The notes below the pieces were generated by a model that was not told the DNA's origin, searched no databases, and was given only the letters and a program-made list of their open reading frames with translations. Shown piece after piece: positions 5,013-42,796 of a DNA stretch of 64,000 nt (position 1 is its first letter; each line of letters opens with the position of its first letter). Source of the stretch: Rhodopirellula sp. (lineage in GTDB: Bacteria > Planctomycetota > Planctomycetia > Pirellulales > Thermoguttaceae); the NCBI GenBank assembly GCA_012728855.1, contig JAAYEH010000704.1, positions 1 through 64,000 on the forward strand, read 5' to 3'. The translations under genes were made by a program, and so were the position numbers.

Positions 5013-5013
5013 A

Positions 5014-5034: not shown

Positions 5035-5067
5035 GAACCAAACCTTCGACCGCCGCCCTGGCTCCTG

Positions 5068-5890: not shown

Positions 5891-5901
5891 TGCCGCCGCA
5901 T

Positions 5902-6480: not shown

Positions 6481-6501
6481 TCTCCTTGCGAAACGGGCTT
6501 T

Positions 6502-7410: not shown

Positions 7411-7619
7411 CCTTGGTGCCTTTCCGGGCCTTTCCCAAAAGATCGGAAGAATTTCCGAACCTTTCTCGGGAGAGGCATATACCCACTAAGCCACCTGCCG
7501 ATTCTATCGGGGCCGTAGGCCAAGGTCAATCGGGGACGGAGCGCAGTGCAAGCAATCAAGCGGAGGTTTTATCCGCAATCGCCTGCAAAACCAAGAACTA
7601 GACAGAATAGGCTGTTTGC

Positions 7620-8267: not shown

Positions 8268-8287
8268 GTGCGCCGCCTCGAGAGGAT

Positions 8288-8403
8288 TGTGTGGAGTGTT
8301 GGAGTGACGGAGTATTGGTAGGTGCGAGGGCAGGAAGGTTGGAAGGTTCAGTGCAGACAGCGCCGAACCTCTCTTTTCCATCACTCCATCACTCCACTCC
8401 CCG
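8288..8403. repeat. short TGGAGTGA-type repeats in inverted orientation around the ilvE stop
   Basis: gtgtggagtgttggagtgacggag (+) and, on -, ggagtggagtgatggagtgatgg. Confidence 0.6.
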
Positions 8404-9255: not shown

Positions 9256-9280
9256 GGCAATTTCGCGCGGTGTGAGTGAG

Positions 9281-10066
9281 TCAGTCGTCCGAGTTCACGG
9301 TCTCAACCCGGCCGTCCACCAGACGAACGGTTCGATCCGCCTGCCGGGCGATGGCGGGGTCGTGCGTAACCATGACTATAGTGAGCTTTTCCTGCCGGTT
9401 CAAGCTGCGAAGGATCTGGAGGATTTCCGCTCCGGTTTTCTGGTCGAGGTTGCCGGTCGGCTCGTCGGCCAACAGCAGTTCCGGCCGCGCCACCAGCGCT
9501 CTGGCAATGGCGGCGCGTTGCATCTCCCCACCAGACAGTTCGCGGGGCAAATGGTTCATGCGATGGCCTAGTCCGACCAGCTCCAGCAGTCGTTCGGCAG
9601 TGCTGCGGTGCCGGCGTCGGCGGCGAAAGAACCCCCAAGCCGACTCGCCGATCATCAGCGGAGCGAGCACGTTTTCCAGCGTGGTCAGTTCCGGCATGAG
9701 GTGATAGAACTGGAAAATCATGCCGAAGGACCGATTTCGCAACGCATCGCGGTCACTGCCGGGCAGATTGTCGATCCGCCGGCCGTTGAAAGCAATTGTG
9801 CCACCATCGGGTGCGTCAAGAGTTCCTAGCAGATGCAGCAGAGTGCTTTTTCCCGAACCACTCTGCCCGATGATCGCCAGGAATTCGCCCTGCTGTACGA
9901 CGAGATCGACCCCCCTGAGAACGGGAATGTCGACCAAGCCCTTGCGATAGCTCTTCTTGAGATTGACCGCTTCGATCTGGCAGCCTCGTGACCAACCGGC
10001 CGCGTTTTGGGACATGGTGCGTGGCCTCGGCGCCGCGGTCGTGCTCCCTTCCAATCCGTTACTCAT
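9281..10066 (-). CDS. ABC transporter ATP-binding protein (LolD/MacB-like)
   Basis: Walker A IIGQSGSGKSTLLHLLG, signature RELSGGEMQRAAIARAL, Walker B LLLADEPTGNLD; start at MSNGLE is one of several options. Confidence 0.9.
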   Translation of the reverse strand: MSNGLEGSTTAAPRPRTMSQNAAGWSRGCQIEAVNLKKSYRKGLVDIPVLRGVDLVVQQGEFLAIIGQSGSGKSTLLHLLGTLDAPDGGTIAFNGRRIDNLPGSDRDALRNRSFGMIFQFYHLMPELTTLENVLAPLMIGESAWGFFRRRRRHRSTAERLLELVGLGHRMNHLPRELSGGEMQRAAIARALVARPELLLADEPTGNLDQKTGAEILQILRSLNRQEKLTIVMVTHDPAIARQADRTVRLVDGRVETVNSDD

Positions 10067-11615: not shown

Positions 11616-11648
11616 AGGGATTGTCGTTCCTTCTTCCGTGACGAACGC

Positions 11649-13136: not shown

Positions 13137-13406
13137 CAGCGCATGGTATCCTGTCTAGGGCTAACTCGCGGGAGTCAGGGATTCTAGTGAAACTGCCGCC
13201 GGGGTCAACGCCAACTGCCGCGACCGGCATTCAAGACGAAGGTACGAACCACCAAGAAGAACTACTGCTTGTGATTGTGGTGGATTTTGCGCAGATGGAG
13301 AATCCGTCCAATCACGAGCAGTGCCACACTGAAAACCGGAACGCCCGCAATGACGCGTCGACTTGGGATAACTTCACCTGGAGCGAAGCGTCGACAACCC
13401 CACGTG

Positions 13407-14384
13407 TCATGAAGCGCGTCCATTTGCGTATTTCCGAACCAATGCCGCATCCTCGCCAGGCTGGTCGCTGTACTGGTCATAGATGCCCACGATCACGGCA
13501 TCGGTCGGCTTGATCGCGGCGAACGTCTCCCGAAACGCTTGTTCCACCCATGCTTTCCGGTCCGAGAGGCGGCCGGCGGCGAGGATCTTGAACGCCAGGC
13601 AAGGGCGGCGGGTGTTGCGTATCGCCTCGAACATCCGCGGCGGGTCTTCCTTCAGATAGACTTCGTTGACCGGCAGCGGCACTCGGCCGAGCAGTTTCTT
13701 GAGGTCTTCCTCGCTGCGGTGTCGCTCGTAGACGCAGGTCATGTAGTAATCCACATCCCACCCTTTCGACTCGACCGCGTCGACCACGTCCGGCATATGC
13801 GTGGAGACGCCGACCATCATCCCCGTGTCGCGAACCTGCTTGAGAAAATCGCGGATCTCGTCGAGCCGCCCCGCCTTGAAGAGCCCATCGGTCACCTCGC
13901 CGTGATGGGCGACCCCGATACAGCCCCCCGCGGCCAGTTTGGCCAGGTCGTTGGGATTCTGGCCCAGGGAGATCGCGGACATCTTTCCGCCTTCATCGAC
14001 GAACCGCCGGTACAAATCCAGATTGACCAGACCGGAAATCTGCCAGCAATTGATTCCCACCTCCTGGCAGCGCCTGAGCGTCTTAAGGATCTGCTCCGAC
14101 GTGAAGTATTCTCGCATTTGCTGATTGACGAACGTCGACAGGTGCGAGCCGCCGTTGAACGGATTGGCGCCGCAAACGAGTCGAGAAAGACTGTGTTTGC
14201 CGAAAGCCACCTGCGGGAGCGCTGTCTCCGGTGCAGCCGCCCAGGCCGGCTGGCCCTGCGCCGCCGCCAAGCCGAGCGAGACCGCTCCGGCGGCCTTGAG
14301 GAACTCCCGGCGGCCGTCGCGACCCGCCATGGCTCCCTCCCCAGCAGGTTGCGGCCCGGAACCCCGTTTCTGGCAATCACTCAT
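13407..14384 (-). CDS. Tat-exported TIM-barrel / aldo-keto-reductase-like protein
   Basis: start MSDCQKR; Tat signal RREFLKAAGAVSLGLAAAQGQPAWAA; barrel-like body. Enzyme class not certain. Confidence 0.65.
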   Translation of the reverse strand: MSDCQKRGSGPQPAGEGAMAGRDGRREFLKAAGAVSLGLAAAQGQPAWAAAPETALPQVAFGKHSLSRLVCGANPFNGGSHLSTFVNQQMREYFTSEQILKTLRRCQEVGINCWQISGLVNLDLYRRFVDEGGKMSAISLGQNPNDLAKLAAGGCIGVAHHGEVTDGLFKAGRLDEIRDFLKQVRDTGMMVGVSTHMPDVVDAVESKGWDVDYYMTCVYERHRSEEDLKKLLGRVPLPVNEVYLKEDPPRMFEAIRNTRRPCLAFKILAAGRLSDRKAWVEQAFRETFAAIKPTDAVIVGIYDQYSDQPGEDAALVRKYANGRAS

Positions 14385-14623
14385 GAACTGGTCTCCTTGG
14401 CGATGACTCCCCGTTGTGCCGGTGTGGCTCACGAATTCAGATACCGGCGCCGTGTGCATCCTACCTCGACAGTTCCCAAACGCCAATAAGGCGAGACTAC
14501 GTGCGGCGGTTCCCCCCCAAAAGGCTTGCTTGAAAACTCTCGCCGCAAGGATCATCATGACACAAGGTGGCCCTGCTCAATGCAGTCGGCTCGCTTCGCA
14601 CCAACCGCTCCGAGAGAGGTTCC

Positions 14624-16051
14624 ATGAAAAACAAACACGCGATTCGCCTTGTGTCGCTCGTTCTTACCCTGGTTGCTCTTACCTCCGCCTCGGCGACGGC
14701 GGCGACCAAAAACGTCATCGTGATGATCGCCGATGGCGCGGGGTTCAACACCTGGCGGGCGGCCGGCATGTACCAGGGGAAACTGGGCAAGGAGATCTAC
14801 GATGGCCCGGGTTGGTCGAAATACGCCGTGACGACGTATGCCCTCTCCCTTTCCGAAACGCCGCGGGGAACGGGCGAGCAGCAGGCCGAACTCGTCTACG
14901 ACCCGGCTCGGGCATGGGACCGTTCGCCCGCCGGCGGCGTCCAGAAAGGCGGGACGGGCGACTTCACCGGCTACAATTGGCTCAAGTCGACCGCGACCGA
15001 CTCGGCCGCGGCCGCCACCGCCATGGCCACCGGAAAGAAGAGCTACAACAGCGCCATCAATTGGAGCGACCTCGATCAGCCCTTGTCGCTTTCCGTCGCC
15101 GAACTGGCCCGGCAGCACGGCAAGGCGGCGGGCGTTGTCACGTCGGTTCAATGGTCGCACGCCACCCCGGCCGCCTTCGGCGCGGCGCACCGCCGCGACC
15201 GGGACGACTACGTGGAAATCGCCAACGAGATGCTCTCCGCCGATACGCTCAACGTCATCATGGGCGCCGGCCACCCCGATTTCGACGACGACGGCAAGGC
15301 GGCCGCAGCGGACCCGAAGTACGTCGGCGGCGCGGAGTCGTGGAGCCAATTGAAGGCGGGAACGCACCCGGGCCGCTGGAAACTGATCCAGAGCAAGGAG
15401 GAATTCCAGTCGCTGACAATCGGCCCGACGCCGCGCCGCGTTGTCGGCACCGCTCAGGTCCGCCGCACTCTCCAGCAAAGCCGCCTCGGCTACGAAACCA
15501 ACGATGCGCCTGGAAGCGATCCGCTCAACAACAACGTTCCCTCGCTGGCGGTCATGACCAAGGCAGCCCTGAACATCCTCGACGAGGATCCGGACGGGTT
15601 GTTTCTGATGGTGGAGGGGGGCGCCGTCGATTGGGCCAATCACCAGAATCAGGCTGCTCGCATGATCGAGGAGCAACTTGCTTTTCTCGAGGCGGTCCAG
15701 ACGGTTGTCGACTGGGTCGCGGCGAACAGCTCGTGGGATGAGACGCTGTTGATCCTCACGGCCGACCACGAGACCGGGATGCTCTGGGGGCCGAATTCCG
15801 ACACCGTCGCCTTCCAGCCGCTGGTCGACAACGGCCCCGGCGCGATGCCCGGCCTTCACTACAACTCGGGCAAGCACACCAACAGCCTTTTGCCGCTCTA
15901 CGTCCGCGGGGCGCACGGCGACCGCTTCGCCGCGTTGGCGGACGGAGTTGACGCGACGGCCGAATCGACGTGGGGCGTCGGGCGGTATCTCAACAACACC
16001 GAACTGTTTGACGTTGTCGCCATCGCCGTGTTGAGGAGGATCGACCAGTAG
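14624..16051 (+). CDS. alkaline phosphatase (PhoA superfamily), secreted
   Basis: signal peptide MKNKHAIRLVSLVLTLVALTSASATAAT; VIVMIADGAGFNTW, TATDSAAAATAMATGKKSYN, VEGGAVDWANH, TADHETGMLWG. Confidence 0.92.
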   Translation: MKNKHAIRLVSLVLTLVALTSASATAATKNVIVMIADGAGFNTWRAAGMYQGKLGKEIYDGPGWSKYAVTTYALSLSETPRGTGEQQAELVYDPARAWDRSPAGGVQKGGTGDFTGYNWLKSTATDSAAAATAMATGKKSYNSAINWSDLDQPLSLSVAELARQHGKAAGVVTSVQWSHATPAAFGAAHRRDRDDYVEIANEMLSADTLNVIMGAGHPDFDDDGKAAAADPKYVGGAESWSQLKAGTHPGRWKLIQSKEEFQSLTIGPTPRRVVGTAQVRRTLQQSRLGYETNDAPGSDPLNNNVPSLAVMTKAALNILDEDPDGLFLMVEGGAVDWANHQNQAARMIEEQLAFLEAVQTVVDWVAANSSWDETLLILTADHETGMLWGPNSDTVAFQPLVDNGPGAMPGLHYNSGKHTNSLLPLYVRGAHGDRFAALADGVDATAESTWGVGRYLNNTELFDVVAIAVLRRIDQ

Positions 16052-25310: not shown

Positions 25311-25600
25311 AACCGCGTTCGATACTATTACGTCAGCAATGCCGAGGCGGAAACGCCCTGGCAGACGATGGCGATGGTCAGCGGCACGCGTTGGTACGTG
25401 GAGGAGTATTTGGAAGACGGAAAGATGTATCCGGGTATGGCCGATTACGAACTCCGGTCTTGGCCCGGTTGGCACCATCACATGAGCCTGGTCGCCCTGG
25501 CTCATCTGTTCGTGACGCTCAGCAAACGCGACCTGAAAAAAGACACGCCCGAGTTGACGTTGGACATGGCCGTGCAACTGTTGCGATCCGCATTTGCCCC
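25311..25600 (+). pseudogene. C-terminal remnant of an IS701/IS4-like DDE transposase
   Basis: RYYVSNAEAETPWQTMAMVSGTRWYVEEYLEDGKMYPGMADYELRSWPGWHHHMSLVALAHLFVTLSKRDLKKDTPELTLDMAVQLLRSA resembles the C-terminal RW..E......K...G...YE.RSW.GWHHH..L...AH.FL pattern; no N-terminal part. Confidence 0.75.
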
Positions 25601-26104: not shown

Positions 26105-26800
26105 ATGCTCGAATTGTGGAATCAAAGCATAGCTGCGGTGAATCTCCCCTACACGATCCTGCTGGGGCTCGTCTTCCTCTACTGGATCCTCTACATCGTC
26201 GGCGCGGTGGGCGAGGATCTGTTGGATTTCGCCGGCTTGGACGTGGATGCCGACCTCGACGCCGGCGGAGGCGTCGAGGCGGATGTCGACGGCGACATCG
26301 ACGTCGGCCACGGACATTCCGGCGGGCTGCTCGGTTCGGCGCTGCACTTTTTTCATGTCGGCGAAGTGCCGGTGATCCTCATTTTCAGTGTGCTCGTGCT
26401 CGCCATGTGGGTTGTCTCCGTGCTGACCAACTACGCCATCGGTAACTCTAGCGCGCTGGTGGCCGCAGCGTTGTTCCCGCCGATCGTGTTGGCGGGGTTG
26501 GTCATCACCAAAACCGCCATCGGTCCCTTTGCGCCGCTGTTGAAGAACCTCTTCGACCAGAGCGGCGACAAAGTGGAACTGATCGGCCGCCGCTGCGTCG
26601 TCAGCTCGTCGGAAGTGACCGGCGAGTACGGCCAGTGTGAAATTGCCAGGACGGGGGCTCCCCTTCTGTTGAATGTCCAGGCCAGGCAAGGCGAGCGGCT
26701 CGCCCGCGGCGAAGAAGCCGTGATCTTCGATTACGACAAAACGAACAACGTCTACTTGATTGCAAAGCTCGATATCCATGCGACCTCGAAGGAGGGCTGA
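26105..26800 (+). CDS. YqiJ/NfeD-like membrane protein with C-terminal OB-fold-like domain
   Basis: 231 aa; TM segments, Asp-rich loop DVDADLDAGGGVEADVDGDIDVGHGHSGG, C-term GDKVELIGRRCVVSSSEVTGEYGQCEIARTGAPLLLNVQARQGERLARGEEAVIFDYD. Confidence 0.75.
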   Translation: MLELWNQSIAAVNLPYTILLGLVFLYWILYIVGAVGEDLLDFAGLDVDADLDAGGGVEADVDGDIDVGHGHSGGLLGSALHFFHVGEVPVILIFSVLVLAMWVVSVLTNYAIGNSSALVAAALFPPIVLAGLVITKTAIGPFAPLLKNLFDQSGDKVELIGRRCVVSSSEVTGEYGQCEIARTGAPLLLNVQARQGERLARGEEAVIFDYDKTNNVYLIAKLDIHATSKEG

Positions 26801-28912
26801 ATGATGGCGGAACTGTTGGCGGGATTGACGTACGTCGTCGTTGGGACGGTGGTACTTTTGCTGGTCGGCGGCCTGGTGATGGCCGTGCGCTGCTGGCGGA
26901 AGGTGGAGCAAGGGACCGCCTTGATCGTGGTGGGCGGCAAGCAGCCGACGGTCCACTTTTCCGGAGTGATCGTGCCGCCGCTGATCCGCCAGACGGAGAT
27001 CATGGATATCTCGATCAAACGCATCGAGATCTTCCGCCACGGCACGGAAGGGCTGATCTGCAAGGACAACGTCCGCGCCGACATCAAGGTGGCCTTCTTC
27101 GTCCGCATCAACAACACTGAGGAGGACGTGCTCAAGGTGGCGCAGTCGATCGGCGCGGAACGGGCGTCGCAGCAACAAGCGATGATTGAATTGTTCGATG
27201 CCAAGTTCTCCGAGGCGCTGAAGACGGTCGGCAAGCAATATGACTTCGTCGATCTCTATACGTCGCGGGAGAGCTTCAAGGATCGCATCCTCAAGATCAT
27301 CGGCCGCGATCTGAACGGCTACATTCTCGACGACGCGGCGATCGACTACCTCGAGCAGACGCCGGTCGAGCACCTCAACCCCAACAACATCCTCGACGCC
27401 GAGGGGATCAAGAAGATCACCGACCTGACCGCGCAGCAGCAGGTGTTGGCCAACAACATCACCCGCGAGAAAGAAAAGGTCATCAAGAAACAGGACGTCG
27501 AGGCCCGCGAGGCGATTCTGGAACTGGAACGCCAGCAACGGGAGGCCGAGGAGAAGCAGCAGCGCGAGGTGGCTTCGGTCACCGCGCGGGAGCGGGCTGA
27601 AGCCAAGAAAATCGAAGAGGAAGAGCGGCTCAAGGCGGAGCGCGCCCGCATCACCGCCGACGAAGAGATCGCCATCGCCGAGGAGAACCGCAACCGGCAG
27701 GTGATCGTGGCCTCGCGAAACCGTGAGCGGACCGACAAGGTAGAGGGGGAGCGGGTCGAGAAGGACCGGCTGTTGGAGGTCACCGAGCGGGAACGGATCG
27801 TTACCCTGGCTCAGATCGAGAAAGAGAAGGCGATCGAGACCGAGAAGCGGGCGATCCAGGATGTGATCCGCGAGCGGGTGGTGGTCGAACGGGCGGTGGT
27901 CGAGGAGCAGGAGAGGATCAAGGACACCCACGAATTTGCCACGGCCGAGCGAGCCAAAAAGGTGGCGATCACCAACGCGGAGCAGCAGGCCCAGGAGGCA
28001 TTGGTCAAACAGATCAAGGCGGCCGAGGCAGCCCGCGATTCGTCGAAGTTCCGGGCCGAGGAGGAAGTGATTGCCGCGGAGGCCAAGCGCAACGCCGCCG
28101 AAAAGGAATCGGCCGCCAAAAAGATTCTGGCCGACGGCATCACGGCGGAAGAAGCGGCGTTGGGGCTGGCTGAGGCGAACGTCATCGAGCGGAAGGCGCT
28201 GGCCGAAGCCCGCGGCCTGGAAGCGAGGGCGGATGCCCTCCAGAAGGAAGGCTTCGCCGAGGCCAATGTTCTGGAGAGGAAGGCGCTGGCCGAGGCAAAG
28301 GGGCTGGAGGCCAAGGCCGCGGCCACCGAGAAGCAAGGCGCGGCGGAAGCTTCGGTAATGCTGCAGAAGTACAATGCCGACGCCTCCGGCATCAGCGAAA
28401 AGGCCAAAGCGATGAAGCTCTACAACGACGCCGGCAAGGAGCACGAGGAGTTCAAGCTGCGGCTGGCCAAGGAGAAGGAGATCGAGTTGGCGGCGATTCT
28501 CGCTCAGCAACAGATCGCCGCCGAGCAGGCCGGTATCGTAGGCAACGCCTTGAAGTCGGCCAAGATCGACATCGTCGGCGGCGAGACGGAATTCTTCGAC
28601 AAGATCACCGGCGCGATCGCCTCGGGTAAGACGATCGACCGCTGGGTCGCCAATAGCCAGGTGCTCCGTGACGTGAAGGGGACGTTTTTCAACGGCGAGG
28701 CTGATGGCTTCCAGAAGAAGCTCGCGGAGTTCATGGCGCAGTTCAACCTCGGCAGCGAGGATGTCAAGAACCTCTCGATCGCGGCGCTGATCGCCAAGAT
28801 GACGACGATGACCACTGACAACGCCGTCCGCCAGGAGTTGGACAACCTGCTCGGATTGTTCCGCGCGGCCGGACGGCACGAGAGCCCGGTTTCAACGTTG
28901 GACGTGAAGTGA
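26801..28912 (+). CDS. flotillin / SPFH (YqiK-like) family protein
   Basis: 703 aa; N-terminal TM, SPFH region RKVEQGTALIVVGGKQPTVHFSGVIVPPLIRQTEIMDISIKRIEI, long EA/K-rich coiled coil. Confidence 0.92.
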   Translation: MMAELLAGLTYVVVGTVVLLLVGGLVMAVRCWRKVEQGTALIVVGGKQPTVHFSGVIVPPLIRQTEIMDISIKRIEIFRHGTEGLICKDNVRADIKVAFFVRINNTEEDVLKVAQSIGAERASQQQAMIELFDAKFSEALKTVGKQYDFVDLYTSRESFKDRILKIIGRDLNGYILDDAAIDYLEQTPVEHLNPNNILDAEGIKKITDLTAQQQVLANNITREKEKVIKKQDVEAREAILELERQQREAEEKQQREVASVTARERAEAKKIEEEERLKAERARITADEEIAIAEENRNRQVIVASRNRERTDKVEGERVEKDRLLEVTERERIVTLAQIEKEKAIETEKRAIQDVIRERVVVERAVVEEQERIKDTHEFATAERAKKVAITNAEQQAQEALVKQIKAAEAARDSSKFRAEEEVIAAEAKRNAAEKESAAKKILADGITAEEAALGLAEANVIERKALAEARGLEARADALQKEGFAEANVLERKALAEAKGLEAKAAATEKQGAAEASVMLQKYNADASGISEKAKAMKLYNDAGKEHEEFKLRLAKEKEIELAAILAQQQIAAEQAGIVGNALKSAKIDIVGGETEFFDKITGAIASGKTIDRWVANSQVLRDVKGTFFNGEADGFQKKLAEFMAQFNLGSEDVKNLSIAALIAKMTTMTTDNAVRQELDNLLGLFRAAGRHESPVSTLDVK
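28172..28345 (+). repeat. 87-bp in-frame tandem repeat within flotillin coiled coil
   Basis: 29-aa units EANVIERKALAEARGLEARADALQKEGFA / EANVLERKALAEAKGLEAKAAATEKQGAA. Confidence 0.85.
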
Positions 28913-28915
28913 TCT

Positions 28916-31900
28916 ATGTCTACGACGGATACGACCAACCAAGCCGGGCCGGAGACCGGCGGCGACGCGATCGAGCGCGGCACATACGAGGTGATTCGCA
29001 ATCGATTGAGCGCCGCCGGGCGCGAACTCCGCGGGCGGCTCGATCAACTCAATGCCGCCCGCAAGGAGGTCTTCGGCGCGATCGAGACCGCCCTGCTGGC
29101 GACCGAACGGGTCACCACCGACCATCATTGCGTGCCTCGCGACATGGTGGCGGTGGGCAACTGGTTCCTCTTCGGCTACAACGTCCACCTCGGCCTGAAA
29201 TCGGCCGCCACGCTCGACGACGTTTTCGCCGTCTACCGCTTCGAGAACCTCACCTTCTCGCGGTTGCCGTTGGACGCCATCGCCGACGAGCGGTTTGCGC
29301 GCGATTTTCAGGAGTTGTTCAAGTACTATCGCAACACGCGGTTCTCGAAATTCGCGGTGATCGGCCCGCACCTGTTCATGGTTTTCCGCACGGGACCGGA
29401 CGTCCGCGACATCAAGACGTTCAAATGGCTGATCCAGGGCGACCGGATCGTCTACCTCGACAATCGCAGCGACCACGAGTTCCACTTTCCGCCACAGCAT
29501 GAGTTCACCTGGCGGCGGACGCACCGCGACATGCACACCGCGGGCCTGCACCCGCACATCTCGATCGAAGACCGGCTCTTCGTCGAGACCACCGAGGGCG
29601 ACCTGACGATCAAAATCGAGAACAACACCGACAGCGGCGAAGGCATCTACGCCGAACCGGTGGCCAACCCCGACCAGACCCTCGACGACGCCGAGATCTT
29701 CTATACGATCGTCGGCAACCTGATCCTCTTGAAGATTCGCCCCTATCAGGAAAGCCGCTTCCGCTATTTCATCTACAGCGAGAAGACGCAGCGGGCCCAC
29801 CGCATCGATTCCATTGAAAACGCCTGCGTGCTCCTGCCCGACGACCACGGGCTAATCTTCGCCAACGGCTATTTCCTCCAGACGGGCGAGACCAAGACGT
29901 TCGACAATGCGCTGTCGGAGATGGTTTTTCGCCAGCGGGTGCAGTCGCCCAATGGCGAGGACTACCTCTACGTCTTCTACAATCGTCCCGAGGGAGTCTA
30001 CATCCTGCTCTCCTACAACTTGATCGAGCAGCAGGTTCGCACCCCGGTGATCTGCAACGGCTTCTCGCTTTTCGAGAACGGCCAGATCGTCTACTTCAAG
30101 GGGCAGGCCGAGCCGCAGCGGCACCACACCTTGCAGATCTGGCAGACCCCCTACGTCGGTCCCGACTACAAGATCCCCACGCAGAACGAATCCTTCCTCT
30201 ACAAGATCGGCAACCGCGACATCGTTCGCGGAATGGCCGAGTGCAACGAGGTGCTCGGACTGATCGGCAAAGAGGACAGCTACGCCAACCTCTTCATCGA
30301 CCTGGCCAAGCAAACTTCCGACGTGCTCGATGCCTACCATTGGCTCGCCAGCGCGGAGGCTTTCAATCTCCGCGAGGTGCTCCTGCGCGTCAAAGAGACG
30401 GCGGAAGCCGCCATCGGGGAGTTTGAGAAGGTCACCGCGGTCCGCCGCGCCACGGAAGCGGAACTTCAGCGCGTGAGCCGGAAAACAGCGACGATCCAGA
30501 GCGCCGTGCGGGCCAGACGGTTCGAGGCGATCGGAGATTACGTGGCGTCGCTGATCGATCTGCGGTCTGTCCGCGGAGAGATCATCTCATTGCGGAGTCT
30601 CCGTTACATCCAGAGCTGCCAGGTCGATGCGCTGGAAAAGGGCGTCGAAGAGAGCGCCCAGCGCGTGGCGGAATCGTGCGTGCGATTCTTGCTGCGAGAC
30701 GAATCGCTGCGGCCCTACCACGAAGCGGTTGCCGCGCATCGTTCCAAGGTCGAACTGGTCGAAAAGGTCGCCGATGCGAAGGAGTTGGAGGCGAGGATCG
30801 TTACCACGGCGAGCGAGTTGGAGATGCTCGTGGAGATCGTCAGTAATCTGAAGATCGACGACGCCACCGAGCGAACCGCCATCATCGACGGCATCTCGGC
30901 GATTTTCTCGCAGTTGAACCAGATCCGCGCCGGGGTCAAGACCCGCATCCACGACCTGATGAAGGTCGAGGGGGCCGCCGAGTTCGCCTCGCAGTTGAAA
31001 CTGCTGGGCCAGGCCGTGGTCAACTATCTCGACGTTTGCGATGCGCCCGAAAAGTGCGAGCAGTATCTGACGAAGATGATGGTTCAGATCGAGGAACTCG
31101 AAGGGCGATTTGCCGAATTCGATGAATTCGTCGTCCAACTCGCCGAAAAGCGGGAGGATGTCTACAACGCCTTCGAAACCCGCAAGCTCCAGCTCATCGA
31201 AGCTCGCAACCGCCGCGCCACCGCCCTGGCCGCGGCGGCCGACCGCATTCTGAAAGGGATCAAAGGCCGCGTCGACGGACTGGCCGCGATCAACGAAATC
31301 AACGGCTATTTCGCCGCCGATATGATGATCGAGAAGATCCGCGACATCGTCCGCCAACTCGGCGAGATGGGCGACTCGGTCAAGGTCGACGACATCCAGA
31401 GCCGCCTGAAGACAATCCGGGAAGACGCCGTCCGCCAACTCAAAGACCGCCAGGATCTCTACGAGGAAGGCGACAACGTCATCCGGCTGGGCAATCACCG
31501 TTTCTCGGTCAATACGCAGGCGTTCGACCTGACCACGGTGCTCCGCGACGGCGAGATGTTCTTCCACCTCAGCGGTACCAATTACTTCGACCGCATCGAC
31601 GATCCGGCCTTGCTTGCCACCCGCGACGTCTGGAGCCAACAGATCATCTCGGAAACCAAGGACGTTTACCGCGGCGAATACCTGGCATGGCGGATCTTGC
31701 TAGCCGAGGGCGCGAGCGATGTTCCACCGGCGGCGACGCTCCTGGCCTATACGGCCGACGAGTTGCTCGCCTTCATCCAGCGCTATATGGGACCGCGCTA
31801 CGCCGAAAGCTACGTCAAGGGGGTCCACGATCACGACGCGGCCCGCATCCTCCGCGGGTTGCTGGAGATGCGCAGCACGATCGGCCTCTTGCGTTACCAT

Positions 31901-34240
31901 CCGCGGGCCAGAGCGCTGGCCGTCGCGTTCTGGTCGCAATTGCCCGACGGGCCGGACAAGGAGTTGATCGCGGCCAAGCGGCGAGGCGTAGGAGCGATTC
32001 GCGGGCTGTTCCCGTCGAGCAACGGCGACGAGCACCAGTCGGGCGAGATCGCCGATCTGATCCGCGATTACGTCGGAGCGACGCGGCTCTTTCCCGCCGA
32101 GCATGTCGAGCAAGCGGCCGAATACCTGGCGGAAGAATTGGCCGGAGCAGGACAATTTTCGATCAGCCCCGTCGCCCGCGATCTCTGTCAGGCGTTCTAT
32201 CGCTATCTCGAAGAGCGGTCGTACACCGAACGCTACGAAAAAGCTCTCAAGGAGGTGGAACACGACGGCGCCAGCGCCTTGGCGCTGGGGCTGGAGTGGG
32301 TGCGAGCGTTTCTCGCCACGCGCGACAGCCGGGAGGAGGCCGACTATACGGAGGAGGCCGCTACCCTACTGGCCGGTCGGACGTTCGATCCCGGTCGCGC
32401 CGTCGATGTCTCGGTAAGCCGCGACCTGGCCGAGATGGTCGGCGACCATCCGGTGATCGAGAACCGCGTCTATCGGCTCAACTATCACCGCTTTACCCAG
32501 CGGCTGGACCGCCACGTCCGCGAGGTCGTGCCACGCTTCGAGGCGTATGGCACACTCAAGAAGGCACTGCTGGACAAAGAGCGCCAGCGGATGCGGCTGG
32601 AGGAGTTTCGGCCACGGGTGTTGACCTCCTTCGTCCGCAACAAGCTGATCGACCAGGTCTACCTGCCCTTGGTGGGCGACAACCTGGCCAAGCAGATTGG
32701 CGCGGCCGGCGAGGCGAAGCGGACCGACCGGATGGGCATGTTGCTGGTCATCTCGCCGCCAGGCTACGGCAAGACGACGTTGATGGAGTACATCGCCAAC
32801 CGGTTGGGGCTGGTTTTCATGAAGATCAACGGCCCCGCCCTGGGCCACCAGGTCACCTCGCTCGATCCGGCTGAGGCCCCCAACGCCGCCGCTCGCGAAG
32901 AGATGGAGAAGCTCAATCTCTCCTTCGAGATGGGCGACAACGTGATGATCTATCTCGACGACATCCAGCACTGTAATCCGGAGTTGCTGCAGAAGTTCAT
33001 CTCGCTCTGCGATGCGCAGCGGAAGATCGAGGGCGTTTGGCGCGGCAGGACGCGGACCTACGATCTGCGGGGCAAGAAGGTGGCCGTGGTGATGGCCGGC
33101 AATCCCTACACCGAGAGCGGCGAAAAGTTCAAGATCCCCGACATGCTCGCCAACCGCGCCGACACCTACAACCTCGGCGAAGTGATCGGCGGCAACGCCG
33201 GGCTGTTCGAGATGATCTACCTGGAAAATGCCTGCACTTCCAATCCCGTACTCAACCAATTAGCCACCCGCAGCCAAAAGGACGTCTACGCGGTGATCCG
33301 CATGGCGGAAGGGACCGACCGCGAAGGCGTGGACCTGGAGGGGAATTACTCGTTGGCCGAGTTGAACGAGATGGTCGCCGTGGTGCGGAAGCTGATGCGG
33401 GTTCGCGACGTGGTGCTGCGCGTCAACGAGGAGTATATCCGCTCGGCCGGCATGAGCGACGACTACCGCACCGAACCGCCCTTCAAGCTCCAGGGTTCCT
33501 ACCGCAATATGAATCGCATCACGGAGCGGGTGGTCGCCGTGATGAACGACGAGGAACTCGAGGCGCTGATCTTGTCGAGTTACCAGAACGACGCACAGAC
33601 GCTGACCACCGGGGCCGAGTCGAACTTGCTGAAATTCAAGGAACTGACAGGCAAGCTGACGCCCACGGAAGCCGAACGGTGGGACGAGATCAAGACCACC
33701 TTCCGCCGCAACCTGCGGCTTCGCGGGCTGGACGAGCAGTCGCAAGCGGGGCAGGTGATCGCCGAACTGGGAGGTCTGGGCGAAGGACTCGACGCGATTC
33801 GGAAGGCCGTCGCGCGGGCGGCGACCGAAATGATCGCCGCCGACGGCAAGACCTCGGCCGCCGAGACGGTCTGGAAGACTTCTTTTGATGCGGAAACGCT
33901 GGAACTGCTCCGTTCGCTTGCCGAACCGTTGAAATCTCTTTGCACGCAGCCGGCGCGATCATCGGCACCGGCGGTGGAAGTGGTCAACAAGGTTCCCACG
34001 GCCATTCTCAGTGTTCTGCGCGAGCAATTCCGGCTGATGCAGGGTTGGATGGAGCCTCTTCACCGGCAGAGCACGAACGTGGGAACGGAGATCCACGGTC
34101 TTCGCAAGACGCTCGAGGAGACGCTGGCCGCCTATCAGCGACTGGTGGAGCGTCTGGAGGAAGCGGCGCGCAAGGGCGACGCTCTCTACGAAAGCCTGGC
34201 ACGCGATCAGGTCCGCAGCGAGCATCCTGGAAAGCCCTAA
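28916..34240 (+). CDS. giant AAA+ ATPase of the DUF3686 / 'DNA repair ATPase' type
   Basis: 1774 aa; long N-terminal beta-rich region, coiled coils, Walker A ISPPGYGKTTLMEYIANRL, Walker B VMIYLDDIQHCN, AGNPYTESGEKFKIPDMLANRADTYNLGEV. Confidence 0.82.
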   Translation: MSTTDTTNQAGPETGGDAIERGTYEVIRNRLSAAGRELRGRLDQLNAARKEVFGAIETALLATERVTTDHHCVPRDMVAVGNWFLFGYNVHLGLKSAATLDDVFAVYRFENLTFSRLPLDAIADERFARDFQELFKYYRNTRFSKFAVIGPHLFMVFRTGPDVRDIKTFKWLIQGDRIVYLDNRSDHEFHFPPQHEFTWRRTHRDMHTAGLHPHISIEDRLFVETTEGDLTIKIENNTDSGEGIYAEPVANPDQTLDDAEIFYTIVGNLILLKIRPYQESRFRYFIYSEKTQRAHRIDSIENACVLLPDDHGLIFANGYFLQTGETKTFDNALSEMVFRQRVQSPNGEDYLYVFYNRPEGVYILLSYNLIEQQVRTPVICNGFSLFENGQIVYFKGQAEPQRHHTLQIWQTPYVGPDYKIPTQNESFLYKIGNRDIVRGMAECNEVLGLIGKEDSYANLFIDLAKQTSDVLDAYHWLASAEAFNLREVLLRVKETAEAAIGEFEKVTAVRRATEAELQRVSRKTATIQSAVRARRFEAIGDYVASLIDLRSVRGEIISLRSLRYIQSCQVDALEKGVEESAQRVAESCVRFLLRDESLRPYHEAVAAHRSKVELVEKVADAKELEARIVTTASELEMLVEIVSNLKIDDATERTAIIDGISAIFSQLNQIRAGVKTRIHDLMKVEGAAEFASQLKLLGQAVVNYLDVCDAPEKCEQYLTKMMVQIEELEGRFAEFDEFVVQLAEKREDVYNAFETRKLQLIEARNRRATALAAAADRILKGIKGRVDGLAAINEINGYFAADMMIEKIRDIVRQLGEMGDSVKVDDIQSRLKTIREDAVRQLKDRQDLYEEGDNVIRLGNHRFSVNTQAFDLTTVLRDGEMFFHLSGTNYFDRIDDPALLATRDVWSQQIISETKDVYRGEYLAWRILLAEGASDVPPAATLLAYTADELLAFIQRYMGPRYAESYVKGVHDHDAARILRGLLEMRSTIGLLRYHPRARALAVAFWSQLPDGPDKELIAAKRRGVGAIRGLFPSSNGDEHQSGEIADLIRDYVGATRLFPAEHVEQAAEYLAEELAGAGQFSISPVARDLCQAFYRYLEERSYTERYEKALKEVEHDGASALALGLEWVRAFLATRDSREEADYTEEAATLLAGRTFDPGRAVDVSVSRDLAEMVGDHPVIENRVYRLNYHRFTQRLDRHVREVVPRFEAYGTLKKALLDKERQRMRLEEFRPRVLTSFVRNKLIDQVYLPLVGDNLAKQIGAAGEAKRTDRMGMLLVISPPGYGKTTLMEYIANRLGLVFMKINGPALGHQVTSLDPAEAPNAAAREEMEKLNLSFEMGDNVMIYLDDIQHCNPELLQKFISLCDAQRKIEGVWRGRTRTYDLRGKKVAVVMAGNPYTESGEKFKIPDMLANRADTYNLGEVIGGNAGLFEMIYLENACTSNPVLNQLATRSQKDVYAVIRMAEGTDREGVDLEGNYSLAELNEMVAVVRKLMRVRDVVLRVNEEYIRSAGMSDDYRTEPPFKLQGSYRNMNRITERVVAVMNDEELEALILSSYQNDAQTLTTGAESNLLKFKELTGKLTPTEAERWDEIKTTFRRNLRLRGLDEQSQAGQVIAELGGLGEGLDAIRKAVARAATEMIAADGKTSAAETVWKTSFDAETLELLRSLAEPLKSLCTQPARSSAPAVEVVNKVPTAILSVLREQFRLMQGWMEPLHRQSTNVGTEIHGLRKTLEETLAAYQRLVERLEEAARKGDALYESLARDQVRSEHPGKP

Positions 34241-34278: not shown

Positions 34279-34538
34279 TCTCCATCGTGCCCGGCGAGAT
34301 TCCAGCATCGGAGCTGATGGTAGCAGCCCGACTGCGTCTTCGGTACGCAAGGCCGATTATCGCGATTTTACCGCTTCTAACGCCGGAGACGGCGGATTTC
34401 GGCGGAAGTCTTGCGCGGGCGACCGCGGCCCCCGGGCGTAAGCTATGCTTTCCGAGGAAACCGGTACAGCAAGATGCCTGGGCGGGGGCGGTGCTCACAA
34501 CGTCCTTCCGCCGGCCGCAAAGCTATGGAACGCAGTCT

Positions 34539-35858
34539 ATGAAAACGCTCAACACTCCCTCACGCGCCGCCGACTCCAAAGAGAACACGTTCGAACAACT
34601 GAAGCAAAGGATCCACAGCAAGCTCGTCGACAAGCTGGATATGTCGCGGATCGGCGAATTGGAGGGGGACGTCCTGCGGCGGGAGATTCGCCTGGTGGTC
34701 GAACACCTCTGCGACACGGAAGACACCCTGCTGAATCGCAGCGAGCGCGACCGGCTGGTCGACGAAGTGCTCGACGAGACGTTCGGCCTCGGGCCGCTGG
34801 AAGTTCTGCTCAAGGATCCGACGATCAGCGACATTCTGATCAACGGGCCGAAGAACATCTACTGCGAACGCCGCGGCAAGATGGAGAAGACGAGCGTTAC
34901 CTTTCGCAACAACGATCACCTGCTGCAAATTGTCGACCGGATCATCTCCAAGGTCGGTCGCCGCGTCGACGAGACCTGCCCGATGGTCGACGCGCGGATG
35001 GCGGACGGTTCCCGCTTCAACGCAATCATCCCGCCGCTGGCCTTGGACGGCGCCGCGGTGTCGATCCGCCGCTTCGGCGCCAATCCACTGAAACTGGAGG
35101 ATCTCCTCAACTACAAGGCGTTTACCCCCGAGATGGTGATGCTGCTGGAGGGCGCCATCAAGGCACGACTGAACATCCTCATATCCGGCGGGACCGGCTC
35201 CGGTAAGACGACCCTGCTTAATACGCTTTCCAGCTTCATTCCCAACACCGATCGCATCGTAACGATCGAGGACGCCGCCGAACTGCAGTTGCAGCAGGAC
35301 CACGTAGTGCGTCTGGAAACCCGTCCGGCGAATATCGAAGGCAAGGGGGCGATCACGGCCACGGACCTGGTGCGAAACGCCTTGCGCATGCGTCCGGAAC
35401 GGATCATCATCGGCGAGTGCCGCGGACCGGAAACCCTGGACATGCTGCAAGCCATGAATACCGGCCACGAGGGATCGATGACGACGTTGCACGCCAACAC
35501 CCCGCGCGACGCCATCGCCCGCATGGAGACGATGATCATGATGGCCGGCTTCGAGCTTCCTTTGAAAGCGATGCGGACGCAGATTGCCAGCGCCGTCCAC
35601 CTCATTGTTCAGGCGAACCGCCTGCAGGGAGGGCCTCGCAAGATCACGCACATCACCGAGGTCGTCGGAATGGAACAGGATACGGTAGTGATGCAGGACA
35701 TCTACACCTTTGAAAAAGACGGAATGGATGAAAACGGCCGGGCATACGGCCGGTTTATCGCACACGGCATCCGGCCGACGTTTATGCCGCGGCTGGAATC
35801 GGCCGGGGTGCGGTTGCCGGCGAGTGCTTTCCGCCAGCGCGTCATGATGGAGGATTAA
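34539..35858 (+). CDS. tadA: Tad/CpaF-type secretion ATPase
   Basis: start MKTLNTPSRAADS; GPLEVLLKDPTISDILINGPKNIYCERRGK, Walker A ISGGTGSGKTTLLNTLS, RPERIIIGECRGPETLDMLQAMNTGHEGSMTTLHANTPRDAIARMETM. Confidence 0.95.
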   Translation: MKTLNTPSRAADSKENTFEQLKQRIHSKLVDKLDMSRIGELEGDVLRREIRLVVEHLCDTEDTLLNRSERDRLVDEVLDETFGLGPLEVLLKDPTISDILINGPKNIYCERRGKMEKTSVTFRNNDHLLQIVDRIISKVGRRVDETCPMVDARMADGSRFNAIIPPLALDGAAVSIRRFGANPLKLEDLLNYKAFTPEMVMLLEGAIKARLNILISGGTGSGKTTLLNTLSSFIPNTDRIVTIEDAAELQLQQDHVVRLETRPANIEGKGAITATDLVRNALRMRPERIIIGECRGPETLDMLQAMNTGHEGSMTTLHANTPRDAIARMETMIMMAGFELPLKAMRTQIASAVHLIVQANRLQGGPRKITHITEVVGMEQDTVVMQDIYTFEKDGMDENGRAYGRFIAHGIRPTFMPRLESAGVRLPASAFRQRVMMED

Positions 35859-35867
35859 TCGTCGCTT

Positions 35868-36839
35868 ATGACTTCGGTACTGATCATCGCAATCGCAGCG
35901 TTTGTCGGCGTCGCCGCACTGGTCGGCGGCGTGGCCATGATGCTCCGGCAACATCCAAGCAGCCGCATCGAAGATCGGCTGGATTTGCTCACCGGGGCCG
36001 CCACGCCCGGCAACCGAGACGGCCTTCTGAAGCAGAAGAGCGTCTTGACACAACCCTTGGACGCCGCTCCCGGTATTCTGGAATCGGCCTTGAACCGGTT
36101 CGGCAACATCGGCAGGCTCCTGGAGCAAGCCGACACTTCGCTCTCCGTCGCGCAGCTCGGCCTGGCCTGCGCCCTGATGGCGGCGGGCGGGGCCGGCGTC
36201 GGGCTGGTGATGAGAATTCACCCGATGTTCTTGCCGGTGCTGGCGGGCTTCATGGCCACGCTGCCCGTAGGCTGGATCCTTTGGCGTCGGAGACGGCGGC
36301 TGAAAGCCTTTGCCGTGCAACTTCCCGAAGCCCTGGAGATGCTCTCCCGCGCCTTGCGATCCGGGCAAAGCCTCGGCGCGGGATTCAATTTGGCGGCCAA
36401 CGAAATGGGCGGTCCCTTAGGCAAGGAATTTCAGCGGGTCTTCGAAGAGCAGAACTTGGGAATCGCGCTCGACGAGTCGCTCGATTCCTTGACGGATCGG
36501 GTGCCCAACCTCGATCTGCGTTTCTTTGTCACCGCGGTGATTCTGCAGCGTCAGACCGGCGGCGATTTGGCGGAGATTCTCGACAAGATCGGTTCGCTCA
36601 TCCGCGAACGATTTCAGATCTGGGGCCAGATCCAGGCGTTGACCGGCGAGGGACGACTGTCGGGCATTGTCCTGCTGGCGTTGCCGGTAGTCCTCTTTTT
36701 GGCAGTGTACCGCTTGAATCCCGATTACATCACGGTTCTTTTCGTGGATCCGATGGGCAAGAAACTGCTCGCCGGAGCGATCGTACTGCAAGTCCTCGGG
36801 GCGTTGTGCATCCGTAAAATCATTGATATCAAAGTTTGA
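35868..36839 (+). CDS. tadB: type II secretion F family protein TadB
   Basis: 323 aa; FAVQLPEALEMLSRALRSGQSLGAGFNLAANEMGGPLGKEFQRVFEEQNLGIALDESLDSLTDRVPNLDLRFFVTAVILQRQTGGDLAEIL. Confidence 0.93.
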   Translation: MTSVLIIAIAAFVGVAALVGGVAMMLRQHPSSRIEDRLDLLTGAATPGNRDGLLKQKSVLTQPLDAAPGILESALNRFGNIGRLLEQADTSLSVAQLGLACALMAAGGAGVGLVMRIHPMFLPVLAGFMATLPVGWILWRRRRRLKAFAVQLPEALEMLSRALRSGQSLGAGFNLAANEMGGPLGKEFQRVFEEQNLGIALDESLDSLTDRVPNLDLRFFVTAVILQRQTGGDLAEILDKIGSLIRERFQIWGQIQALTGEGRLSGIVLLALPVVLFLAVYRLNPDYITVLFVDPMGKKLLAGAIVLQVLGALCIRKIIDIKV

Positions 36840-36846
36840 GCCGACC

Positions 36847-37818
36847 ATGATTCTTGCCGACTTGATCAACTACGAAAGCTTGCTGCCCGTGGCCGTCTTT
36901 GGGATGTTCGCGGCGTTGGCCTGGTGGATTTTGGAGTCCGTAGGCGGGAGGCGCTCGCGGACGGTGGAGCGTCTCGAGGAGTTCAGTAATCCCCGCGCGC
37001 GTCGCGCCGGCGAACCGCGCACCGTCAAGAAGACCGATGCGGTCACCAAGATGCTCGAAAGGGCCACGCCCGCCCTGGCCAGGCCGCTGGAGCCGAAAAA
37101 CGAATTTGAAAAGAGCAAGCTCAAGAGCAAGCTGGCCCACGCGGGCTTCCGCGGCGAGGGGGCGCCAAGCATCTTCCTCGGATTGAAATTCGCCGGACTG
37201 GTAGCCGCGCTCTGCTTGGGTGGCGGAACCGTTCTGACGCTCAGCGGCATCTCGCAGAGATCGGTGATGGCGTCGATCGCCGTGGCGGGACTGATGTTCT
37301 ACCTGCCCGATCTGGTCGTCTGGTTCCTCGGCAAAAGCCGCAAGGACGCCATTTTCCTGGGACTGCCCGACGCCTTGGATCTGATGGTGGTTTGCGTGGA
37401 AGCCGGGCTTGGCCTGGATCAGGCCATGCGCAAGGTTTCCGAAGAGATGAAGAAGAGCTACCGCCTGATCGCCGAGGAATTCGGCCTGTCGAACTTCCAA
37501 CTGCAAATGGGGCGGCCTCGTACGGAGGTTCTCCACGAACTGGGCGCGCGGACCGGTGTGTCCGACCTGCGAACGCTTGCCGGCGTATTGATCCAGGCCG
37601 ACAAATTCGGGTCGAGCGTCGCCCAGGCGCTGCGGGTGCAGAGCGATGCCATGCGTGTTCGCCGCCGCCAATTGGCGGAGGAGAAAGCCGCCAAGACGGC
37701 CGTCAAATTGATTTTCCCGCTAGTGCTCTTCATCTTTCCCGGTATCTTCGTGGTGCTGGTCGGCCCGGCCGCGATCACGATGGTCCGCGAAATGTTCCCG
37801 AAAATGTCCGGAGGCTAG
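36847..37818 (+). CDS. tadC: type II secretion F family protein TadC
   Basis: LPDALDLMVVCVEAGLGLDQAMRKVSEEMKKSYRLIAEEF, GSSVAQALRVQSDAMRVRRRQLAEEKAAKTAVKLIFPLVLFIFPGIFVVLVGPA. Confidence 0.93.
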   Translation: MILADLINYESLLPVAVFGMFAALAWWILESVGGRRSRTVERLEEFSNPRARRAGEPRTVKKTDAVTKMLERATPALARPLEPKNEFEKSKLKSKLAHAGFRGEGAPSIFLGLKFAGLVAALCLGGGTVLTLSGISQRSVMASIAVAGLMFYLPDLVVWFLGKSRKDAIFLGLPDALDLMVVCVEAGLGLDQAMRKVSEEMKKSYRLIAEEFGLSNFQLQMGRPRTEVLHELGARTGVSDLRTLAGVLIQADKFGSSVAQALRVQSDAMRVRRRQLAEEKAAKTAVKLIFPLVLFIFPGIFVVLVGPAAITMVREMFPKMSGG

Positions 37819-40644: not shown

Positions 40645-40700
40645 GAGCGGCTAAGTGAAGTTTCCACTCGGTGGGGCGATAGGACGCCAACTCTGCGCCC

Positions 40701-40725
40701 AGGTTCCGCTTGCCGAGTGGGACCT
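40701..40725. repeat. palindromic element family 1, copy 3
   Basis: AGGTTCCGCT-TGCCG-AGTGGGACCT; stem retained through two G-U type pairs. Confidence 0.8.
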
Positions 40726-40859
40726 AACTTCTGTTACCTGTCAACGTCGAGATTTGAACCAGGCCCCAATTCTTAGGTCTGAATGGCCGAATCCTTTGCT
40801 TCTCGACAGATGCAACAGAAGGTATATTCGAGGATGGATTAGTGGTATGCGCACCTCTG

Positions 40860-40904
40860 GGAGGGGAAGTTTCGCGGCGGACAGAACCAGCCGCAGTTTC
40901 CTCC
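40860..40904 (+). other. predicted nested hairpin in leader of homocysteine methyltransferase/MetF gene
   Basis: GGAGGGGA/TTTCCTCC outer and GCGGC/GCCGC inner stems, 27 nt before ATG 40931. Confidence 0.45.
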
Positions 40905-40930
40905 AGCAGGAAGGAACCCTCGCTTCTCTC

Positions 40931-42796
40931 ATGACCGACCGACCAACTTTCGTCGATGCACTCCACAGCGGGGTGCTTGTTTTTGACGGCCCGATGGGAA
41001 CGGAACTCTATCGGCATCATGTTTTCACCAACCGCTGTTTCGACGAGCTTTGCCTCTCCGATCCTTCCTTGATTCGACAAATCCACGCCGACTACTGCGA
41101 TGCCGGGGCCGACGTGCTTACCACCAACACCTTCGGGGCCAATCGCATTGCGCTGGGCAAGTTCGGTCTTGCCGAACGACTGCGGGAAATCTGCACCGCC
41201 GGCGCCCGCATCGCCCGAGAGGTTGCCGACGGGGCCGGGCGGCCGGTCTGGGTCGCCGGATCAATCGGTCCCCTGCCGCCCCAACCACAGCAGGAGAGCG
41301 AACTGGAGGAGATGGTTGTGGAACAGGTGGAGGCCCTGGTGGCAGGCGGGGCCGACTTCATCCTTTTTGAGACGCAGCCGATGCGGCAGTCGCTCGAGCG
41401 GTCGGCCGCGGCCATGCGTCGGTTGCCCGGCGTTCCTTTTGTCCTCTCCTTTACTGTTGTCCAGCGCGCGGAGACCGCCTCCGGCGAACCGGTCGAGCGG
41501 ATGCTCGCGCCGCTGCCGGAAGGCTCCCCACAGCCCATCGCCTGGGGCATGAACTGCGGCACGGGACCGGACGGGCTGCTCAGCGCCGTCGAGAAGGCGG
41601 TCCACCTGACCAACCTGCCGTTGATCGTGCAACCCAACGCCGGAATGCCCCGCGAAGTCGATCACCGCAACATCTATTTCTGCTCGCCGGAATACCTGAC
41701 GAGCTACGCCCGCCAGTATGTCGATTTGGGCGTCGGCGCCGTGGGCGGCTGCTGCGGCATCACCCCGGAGCATATCCGGGAAATGGCGGCGGCGATCAAG
41801 CCGCTGGCCCGCTCCCGCGTGAGACGCGTGATGGTCGCCGAGCCGGCGGAATCGGCCGAGTTGAGGGAGCCCACCGCAGTAGCCGAGCGATCTCGCCTGG
41901 CCTGGCGGCTGACGCATGGCAAGTGGTGTACGAGCGTCGAACTGCTGCCGCCGCGTGGTTGGGATCTCAGCGCGACGATCGAAAAGTCGCGATCCCTCTA
42001 TCGCCACGGGATCGACGCCATCAATATCCCCGACGGCCCGCGGGCCAGCTCGCGGATTTCCTCGCTGGTCGTCGCCGAGCGGATCCAGCAGGCGGTGGGC
42101 ATCGAGGTGATCTTGCACTTCTGCTGCCGCGACCGCAATCTTATCGGGATGCAGGCCGATCTGTTGGCCTGCGCCGCTTGTGACGTCCACAACATCCTCT
42201 TCGTTACCGGCGATCCGCCCAAGCTGGGCAACTACCCGCACGCCACCGGTGTCTTCGATACGGATTCCATCGGCATGGCCGGCGTGCAGAAGAGGCTCAA
42301 CTGCGGGCTCGATCTGGGCGGACAGGCGATCGAGCCGCAGACGTCGGCCTTCATCGGCGTCGGCCTCGACCCCACCGCGCTGGACCACCGGCGCGAACTG
42401 GACCGCTTCCGTCAAAAGGTCGAGGCAGGGGCGGAGTTTGCCATCACACAGCCGGTCTTTGATCCCGATGCGCTGCTGCGATTTCTCGACGAGGTCCGGC
42501 AGTACGAAATACCCATTCTTGCCGGCGTGTGGCCTCTGGCCAGTTACCGCAACGCCATGTTCCTGCACAACGAAGTCCCCGGCGTGGAGATCCCGGATGC
42601 GATTATGCAGCGGATGGCATCCGTCTCCAGCCGCGAGGAGCAGATGGCGATGGGCGTCCGCATTGCCCAGGAATCGGTGCGGCGGGTACACGACCGCATT
42701 GCCGGCATCCAGGTGAGCGCTCCGTTCGGCAAGGTGGAAACGGCGTTGGCGGTGATCGAGGGATGGAACGACAGTTATTCCCCCGCCGATCCTTGA
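40931..42796 (+). CDS. bifunctional homocysteine S-methyltransferase / methylenetetrahydrofolate reductase
   Basis: N-term VFDGPMGTELYRH, AGADVLTTNTFGANRIAL, GGCCGITPEHI; C-term SVELLPPRGWDLS, HFCCRDRNLIGMQADLLACAACDVHNILFVTGDPPKLGNYP, EFAITQPVFDPDALLRFLDEV. Confidence 0.93.
   Translation: MTDRPTFVDALHSGVLVFDGPMGTELYRHHVFTNRCFDELCLSDPSLIRQIHADYCDAGADVLTTNTFGANRIALGKFGLAERLREICTAGARIAREVADGAGRPVWVAGSIGPLPPQPQQESELEEMVVEQVEALVAGGADFILFETQPMRQSLERSAAAMRRLPGVPFVLSFTVVQRAETASGEPVERMLAPLPEGSPQPIAWGMNCGTGPDGLLSAVEKAVHLTNLPLIVQPNAGMPREVDHRNIYFCSPEYLTSYARQYVDLGVGAVGGCCGITPEHIREMAAAIKPLARSRVRRVMVAEPAESAELREPTAVAERSRLAWRLTHGKWCTSVELLPPRGWDLSATIEKSRSLYRHGIDAINIPDGPRASSRISSLVVAERIQQAVGIEVILHFCCRDRNLIGMQADLLACAACDVHNILFVTGDPPKLGNYPHATGVFDTDSIGMAGVQKRLNCGLDLGGQAIEPQTSAFIGVGLDPTALDHRRELDRFRQKVEAGAEFAITQPVFDPDALLRFLDEVRQYEIPILAGVWPLASYRNAMFLHNEVPGVEIPDAIMQRMASVSSREEQMAMGVRIAQESVRRVHDRIAGIQVSAPFGKVETALAVIEGWNDSYSPADP

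Follow-up and report, generated by a model that had tools for sequence, protein, structure and literature searches.

What does a giant ATPase, carried in databases as a 'DNA repair ATPase', do when its gene directly follows those of a membrane protein and a flotillin-like scaffold? This question is raised by a stretch of 64,000 nt from Rhodopirellula sp. (contig JAAYEH010000704.1, positions 1-64,000, forward strand; the genome is 99% complete), referred to here as the window, in which three + strand genes (the trio; Table 1) encode a YqiJ-like membrane protein, a YqiK-type SPFH/flotillin protein and a DUF3686 AAA+ protein. A first-pass annotation had reported gaps of 0 nt (membrane gene/SPFH gene) and 3 nt (SPFH gene/ATPase gene) between these three frames, which the open reading frame (ORF) coordinates confirm, and an AAGGAGG motif lies directly 5' of the SPFH start codon; scans for sigma-70-type promoters and for terminators gave matches at chance level only. 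The same annotation had deduced stoichiometric co-expression from the spacing, a claim that is not supported, as gene spacing does not show it. Its proposal of a membrane-scaffolded AAA+ machine remains the best reading of the locus, and on balance we favour the view that the three products assemble into a single membrane-bound machine that remodels proteins in the service of envelope upkeep.

The trio, whose earlier description the first-pass annotation had missed, belongs to a gene set already described computationally in 2024. Ravi et al. (2024, mSystems; PMC11237479) reported operons that combine CesT/Tir-PspA, YqiJ/YuaF, band-7/flotillin and beta-propeller-coiled-coil-AAA+ genes, as well as 'abbreviated' forms, and suggested that the abbreviated operons may use PspA encoded elsewhere. 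The present analysis adds three constraints on this class, i.e., independence from PspA, a MoxR-like fold with a DD Walker B motif, and a C-terminal region specific to AAA-linked SPFH proteins.

Linkage and co-inheritance of the three genes

Gene neighborhoods were surveyed in one-per-species genomes, using 80 named loci out of at least 569; these loci span Planctomycetota, Bacteroidota, Verrucomicrobiota, Kiritimatiellota, Desulfobacterota, Riflebacteria and others, and the trio was found in at least 8 phyla. Among the loci with at least 3.3 kb of upstream sequence (n = 64), searched with profiles built from planctomycete members, 60 showed the order membrane gene-SPFH gene-ATPase gene on one strand. 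The same order was found in 7 of 7 loci from a plasmid collection (Pseudomonas pQBR103, Proteus, Vibrio, Streptomyces, Nonomuraea, Deinococcus and Hymenobacter). The linkage that had been proposed from the window alone is thus borne out, DUF3686 homologues being far from generally unlinked to the other two genes. At the genome level, DUF3686 was present in 40 of 297 Planctomycetota genomes, all 40 of which also carry a strong SPFH match, and a strong SPFH match without DUF3686 occurred in only two Planctomycetota genomes, in which the contigs end 36 and 245 nt past the SPFH gene. Both the SPFH and the AAA proteins show about 50-70% identity over many phyla, far above chance. Overall, these data support a near-obligate linkage and suggest that the three genes represent a functional unit.

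Association with PspA

Our own neighbor survey independently recovered the link to PspA: 23 of 80 loci carry it close to the trio, and in many it lies directly upstream. Recurrent neighbors were PspA, CesT/Tir and an XRE/LexA-like regulator, and Pfam confirmed PspA, CesT/Tir and the LexA-like gene at a representative locus. At one locus (L153; contig of genome G242, 4500-14839) three PspA genes flank a single trio, two upstream and one directly downstream. On plasmid pQBR103 from an environmental Pseudomonas (L132, 986-14190), the trio directly follows a YjfI-PspA-rhomboid-DUF2491-DUF350-DUF1190-glutathionylspermidine synthase array, an arrangement that merges two operon groups of Ravi et al.

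Among Planctomycetota, PspA was present in 28 of 40 genomes with DUF3686 as compared to 49 of 257 genomes without it (Fisher P = 3 × 10-10, uncorrected for descent and genome size, either of which could inflate this enrichment). Within the window's order PspA was no commoner in genomes with the trio (3/11) than in the remainder (21/89), and we thus do not lean on the phylum-wide enrichment. In the window's genome no PspA was found after scoring 15 of 15 candidates, nor with a profile of trio-linked PspA proteins, and there was no Snf7 match. PspA was likewise not found in the single-contig genome G066, in G063, G212, G153 and G140, or in Pontibacter virosus DSM 100231. For any one of these genomes a gene too divergent for both profiles, or one in an assembly gap, is conceivable, which would not easily apply to all of them. 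Taken together, the trio-bearing genomes without PspA and the lack of an order-level association indicate that PspA is an optional partner and that the core has a PspA-independent job; as the window's genome encodes no recognisable PspA, the trio must act on something else there.

The three encoded proteins

In the giant protein, Pfam recognised DUF3686, DUF7902 (Table 1) and AAA_5/AAA (about residues 1276-1401). The Walker A and Walker B (IYLDD) motifs that had been read as intact are present and kept in 80 homologues: Walker A is invariant save for one T to C change, and the DDIQH of Walker B, in which the second acidic residue is D instead of the usual E, occurs in 80 of 80 homologues and in 7 of 7 from the plasmid collection. 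The AGNP sensor 1 and the RAD arginine were also invariant or nearly so among the 80 homologues. AlphaFold (AF2) models show a beta-rich domain across DUF3686 followed by long helices in the N-terminal part (predicted local distance difference test, pLDDT, 86), and a helical array followed by an AAA+ module with a pre-sensor-1 hairpin in the C-terminal part (pLDDT 80.5). Foldseek matched the N-terminal part to beta-propellers of several kinds with low template-modelling scores; DUF3686 is thus predicted to be a beta-propeller at the level of class, with no specific relative. For the AAA+ module the best matches were CbbQ2 and NorQ, both MoxR-type (target-normalised template-modelling score 0.54-0.60), followed by RuvB and FtsH, with spastin and fidgetin of the Vps4 clade ranking below the MoxR and RuvB types. 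From these models the module appears to resemble MoxR-type remodellers and not Vps4. The MoxR features seen were the AAA_5 match and the top-ranking CbbQ/NorQ folds; the helix-2 insert was not evident in the AF2 model, and the vWA family was not among the recognised recurrent neighbors of the trio, which were not scanned individually for vWA domains. MoxR proteins of the CbbQ/NorQ type remodel protein complexes. The giant ATPase is probably cytoplasmic, as it has no evident transmembrane segment.

For the 703-aa protein Pfam gave no Band_7 or Flot match at E ≤ 1, and as Pfam, NCBIfam and PDB sequence searches returned essentially no match, it was identified through its similarity to E. coli YqiK (29% identity over residues 11-447, BLASTP E = 2 × 10-43; hhalign probability 99.9%). 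Despite the silence of Pfam, the initial assignment to the SPFH family is therefore upheld; an SPFH domain (about residues 33-205) is followed by a long coiled coil. A second, AAA-less SPFH class with matches of 117-197 bits occurs in Planctomycetota within YqiJ-YqiK operons, and PspA was adjacent in four of the sister operons examined. In L143, L144, L146 and L147, PspA accompanies a YqiJ-like protein rich in Asp and an SPFH protein of the YqiK type; the latter is without the conserved C-terminal region, and there is no giant ATPase. L148-L150 combine YqiJ-like and AAA-less SPFH genes without PspA.

The SPFH domain itself is common to AAA-linked SPFH proteins, AAA-less ones and YqiK. The distal part of residues 526-690, on the other hand, was present in 46 of 46 held-out AAA-linked SPFH proteins (E ≤ 3 × 10-33) and gave no match in 7 AAA-less SPFH proteins or YqiK (E ≥ 0.1). 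Among the more distant plasmid-collection SPFH proteins (n = 7), the proximal C-terminal part was recognised in all 7, and the distal part was clear in 3 and weak in 2. As AAA-linked SPFH proteins hold a C-terminal region that AAA-less ones lack, residues 526-690 represent a candidate dock for the ATPase.

The 231-aa membrane protein scored 24 bits with Pfam YqiJ_N, for which the cut-off is 23. Its similarity to E. coli YqiJ was visible by profile comparison only (hhalign probability 96%, E = 3 × 10-9, over the second and third transmembrane segments, TM2 and TM3, and the C-terminus), with no significant BLASTP match. A membrane protein with an Asp-rich loop had been described from the outset, and this part of the description stands: the acidic TM1-TM2 loop is general among homologues (22.5% D/E and 2% K/R in 56 homologues). 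The OB-like C-terminus described with it has indirect backing only, 1 of 27 homologues matching NfeD (E = 0.005). The composition of the loop, with repeats such as DVDADVD, is kept across phyla and its sequence is not; such a strongly acidic loop is possibly a cation or membrane-surface sensor.

Feature coordinates and surrounding genes

Table 1. Features of the trio, in window coordinates
Feature	Coordinates	Strand	Basis
YqiJ-like (NfeD-related) membrane protein with three transmembrane segments, 231 aa	26105..26800	+	ORF; Pfam YqiJ_N; hhalign to E. coli YqiJ
Asp-rich TM1-TM2 loop, residues about 37-72	26213..26320	+	Hydropathy scan; homologue comparison
YqiK-type SPFH/flotillin scaffold, 703 aa	26801..28912	+	ORF; BLASTP and hhalign to YqiK; conservation
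SPFH C-terminal region, residues 526-690, candidate ATPase-docking region	28376..28870	+	Profile comparison, AAA-linked vs AAA-less
Giant DUF3686 AAA+ protein, 1774 aa, database label 'DNA repair ATPase'	28916..34240	+	ORF; Pfam
DUF3686 domain, residues 37-475, predicted beta-propeller	29024..30340	+	Pfam, 631 bits; AF2; Foldseek
DUF7902, residues 597-678, inside long helical region	30704..30949	+	Pfam, 92.6 bits
AAA+ module, residues about 1230-1560, MoxR-like, pre-sensor-1 hairpin	32603..33595	+	Pfam AAA_5; AF2; Foldseek
Walker A SPPGYGKTT, residues 1280-1288	32753..32779	+	80-homologue comparison
Walker B VMIYLDDIQH, residues 1343-1352, D instead of E at catalytic position	32942..32971	+	80-homologue comparison; plasmid-collection homologues

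About 0.5 kb upstream of the trio, a short + strand frame (25314-25595; GTRWYVEEYLEDGKMYPGMADYELRSWPGWHHHMSLVALAHLF) was judged by eye to resemble the end of an insertion sequence (IS) transposase; it has no Pfam match at 1e-5 and is a possible mobile-element remnant. Tad-type pilus genes (34287-37818; CpaF-like T2SSE, T2SSF) start right downstream of the trio on the same strand, with no sign of belonging to it. Further downstream lies a homocysteine S-methyltransferase/MTHFR gene (40655-42796; Pfam), and a near-trio gene in a genome of the same family (G016; L012:9828-11672) encodes a protein with a very similar N-terminus; this proximity in both genomes may reflect chance or old synteny.

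Proposed mechanism and alternative explanations

In the machine that we favour, the YqiJ-like and YqiK-type proteins would build a ring or cage of the flotillin type at the inner membrane, by analogy with QmcA-YbbJ and HflKC, and the cytoplasmic ATPase would be held at this scaffold, most likely through the C-terminal region common to AAA-linked SPFH proteins. The beta-propeller and the helical arms of the ATPase may bind clients or the scaffold, and the MoxR-type AAA+ ring, using ATP, would remodel membrane-associated clients. PspA/ESCRT-III filaments would be one client or partner where PspA adjoins the trio; in the window's organism the clients would be others, e.g., damaged membrane-protein assemblies. 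The fully specified version, in which a PspA-independent, flotillin-anchored MoxR-type machine docks its giant beta-propeller ATPase on the SPFH C-terminal region and takes PspA as an optional client, is put forward tentatively.

Several points weigh against a single machine. In three of the 64 loci no SPFH gene adjoins that of the ATPase, and in one more the SPFH gene is present with no membrane-protein gene detected. Tree distances correlate between the proteins (SPFH-AAA 0.92 and membrane protein-AAA 0.79, reached in 0 of 999 permutations; third value 0.85), which speaks for co-inheritance but would also follow from vertical descent by itself. The distal C-terminal match is weak or absent in gammaproteobacterial and Deinococcus SPFH proteins, the DD Walker B could signify slow or altered hydrolysis, and in the open-access papers searched we found neither a mention of DUF3686 nor an experiment on any DUF3686 protein.

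If the suggestion of Ravi et al. is extended, the ATPase could be a bacterial counterpart of Vps4 that disassembles or recycles PspA/ESCRT-III filaments placed by the flotillin on damaged membrane, with trio-only genomes using PspA encoded elsewhere. The PspA genes directly upstream of many trios, and the two or three copies that sometimes lie around one, would fit, as would the uncorrected phylum-wide enrichment; however, PspA was not found in the window's genome and the six others named above, the order-level comparison shows no association, and MoxR and RuvB folds outrank spastin and fidgetin, so that we consider this account rather unlikely. Adjacency and co-inheritance show a functional link and are not proof of contact, and in many Bacteroidota the SPFH and ATPase genes are 0.5-3 kb apart; the three genes could thus form a co-regulated envelope-stress regulon without a single complex, the ATPase acting on soluble or other targets. 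The near-perfect genome-level coupling across many phyla, together with an SPFH C-terminal region found only alongside the ATPase, makes this improbable.

A role in phage response, raised by the first-pass annotation, or in another form of membrane defence would agree with the patchy spread of the trio (40/297 Planctomycetota genomes, 5/149 genomes of the Hymenobacter phylum), its presence on some plasmids and its link to 'phage shock' proteins. Nevertheless, PADLOC gave no convincing hit for the trio or for nine neighbors in the window, no match was obtained among 50,697 phage records, the recurrent neighbors are not defence genes, and the window surroundings (tRNA synthetases, a purine gene, pilus genes) are no defence island; the phage claim accordingly has no support here, and a defence function is judged very unlikely. 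Least credible is action in DNA repair, for which one could cite the name that Pfam gives to DUF3686, a weak similarity to RuvB at the P-loop and the occurrence in Deinococcus. The RuvB similarity is limited to about 50-80 residues around the P-loop, the constant partners are membrane proteins, and no DNA-binding domain was found; the database name thus looks misleading, as had been suspected initially.

Comparison with known systems

The window shares the three core families of the class of Ravi et al., with a YqiJ/YuaF-type protein of three transmembrane segments, an SPFH protein recognised by YqiK homology, and a DUF3686-AAA protein with predicted propeller and AAA+ module; it represents an abbreviated form that includes the AAA+ gene. 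The CesT/Tir-PspA dyad of the full form is not in the window operon and, contrary to the suggestion of PspA elsewhere, no recognisable PspA is present genome-wide. E. coli yqiJ-yqiK has a homologous membrane protein and SPFH scaffold in identical order, but no adjacent DUF3686 ATPase, and YqiK is without the conserved C-terminal region of the window SPFH protein. In B. subtilis, PspA, a member of the ESCRT-III family, depends on the SPFH protein YdjI of YdjFGHI for its recruitment to the membrane (PMC8581546), which is a precedent for the machine that we favour; that system resembles the window in its SPFH protein, whereas it has no giant ATPase and different membrane partners. Vps4 of the ESCRT system differs in its classical AAA fold, MoxR and RuvB types ranking first for the window module with its modelled pre-sensor-1 hairpin, and in its ESCRT-III-family partner, no PspA_IM30 or Snf7 match being found in the window's genome.

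CbbQ and NorQ provide the closest solved folds to the AAA+ module. In the window this module is one part of a 1774-aa protein that also has a propeller and helical arms, and no vWA partner was seen among the recurrent neighbors. The cages of QmcA-YbbJ and HflK-HflC are also built on SPFH scaffolds, QmcA with an NfeD-type partner and HflKC with an AAA+ protein, FtsH; they belong to another SPFH subfamily (the QmcA match is weak and confined to the coiled coil), and the window ATPase, unlike FtsH, is MoxR-like with no protease domain found. Flotillins occur in all domains of life, and the strict coupling in at least 8 phyla suggests that a dedicated ATPase belongs to one class of bacterial flotillins. 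The persistence of the trio without PspA would set its core job apart from the phage-shock response, and points to the organisms and the protein region worth testing. If the proposed machine exists, it would add another kind to the SPFH-AAA+ partnerships, next to HflKC-FtsH and prohibitin-mAAA protease.

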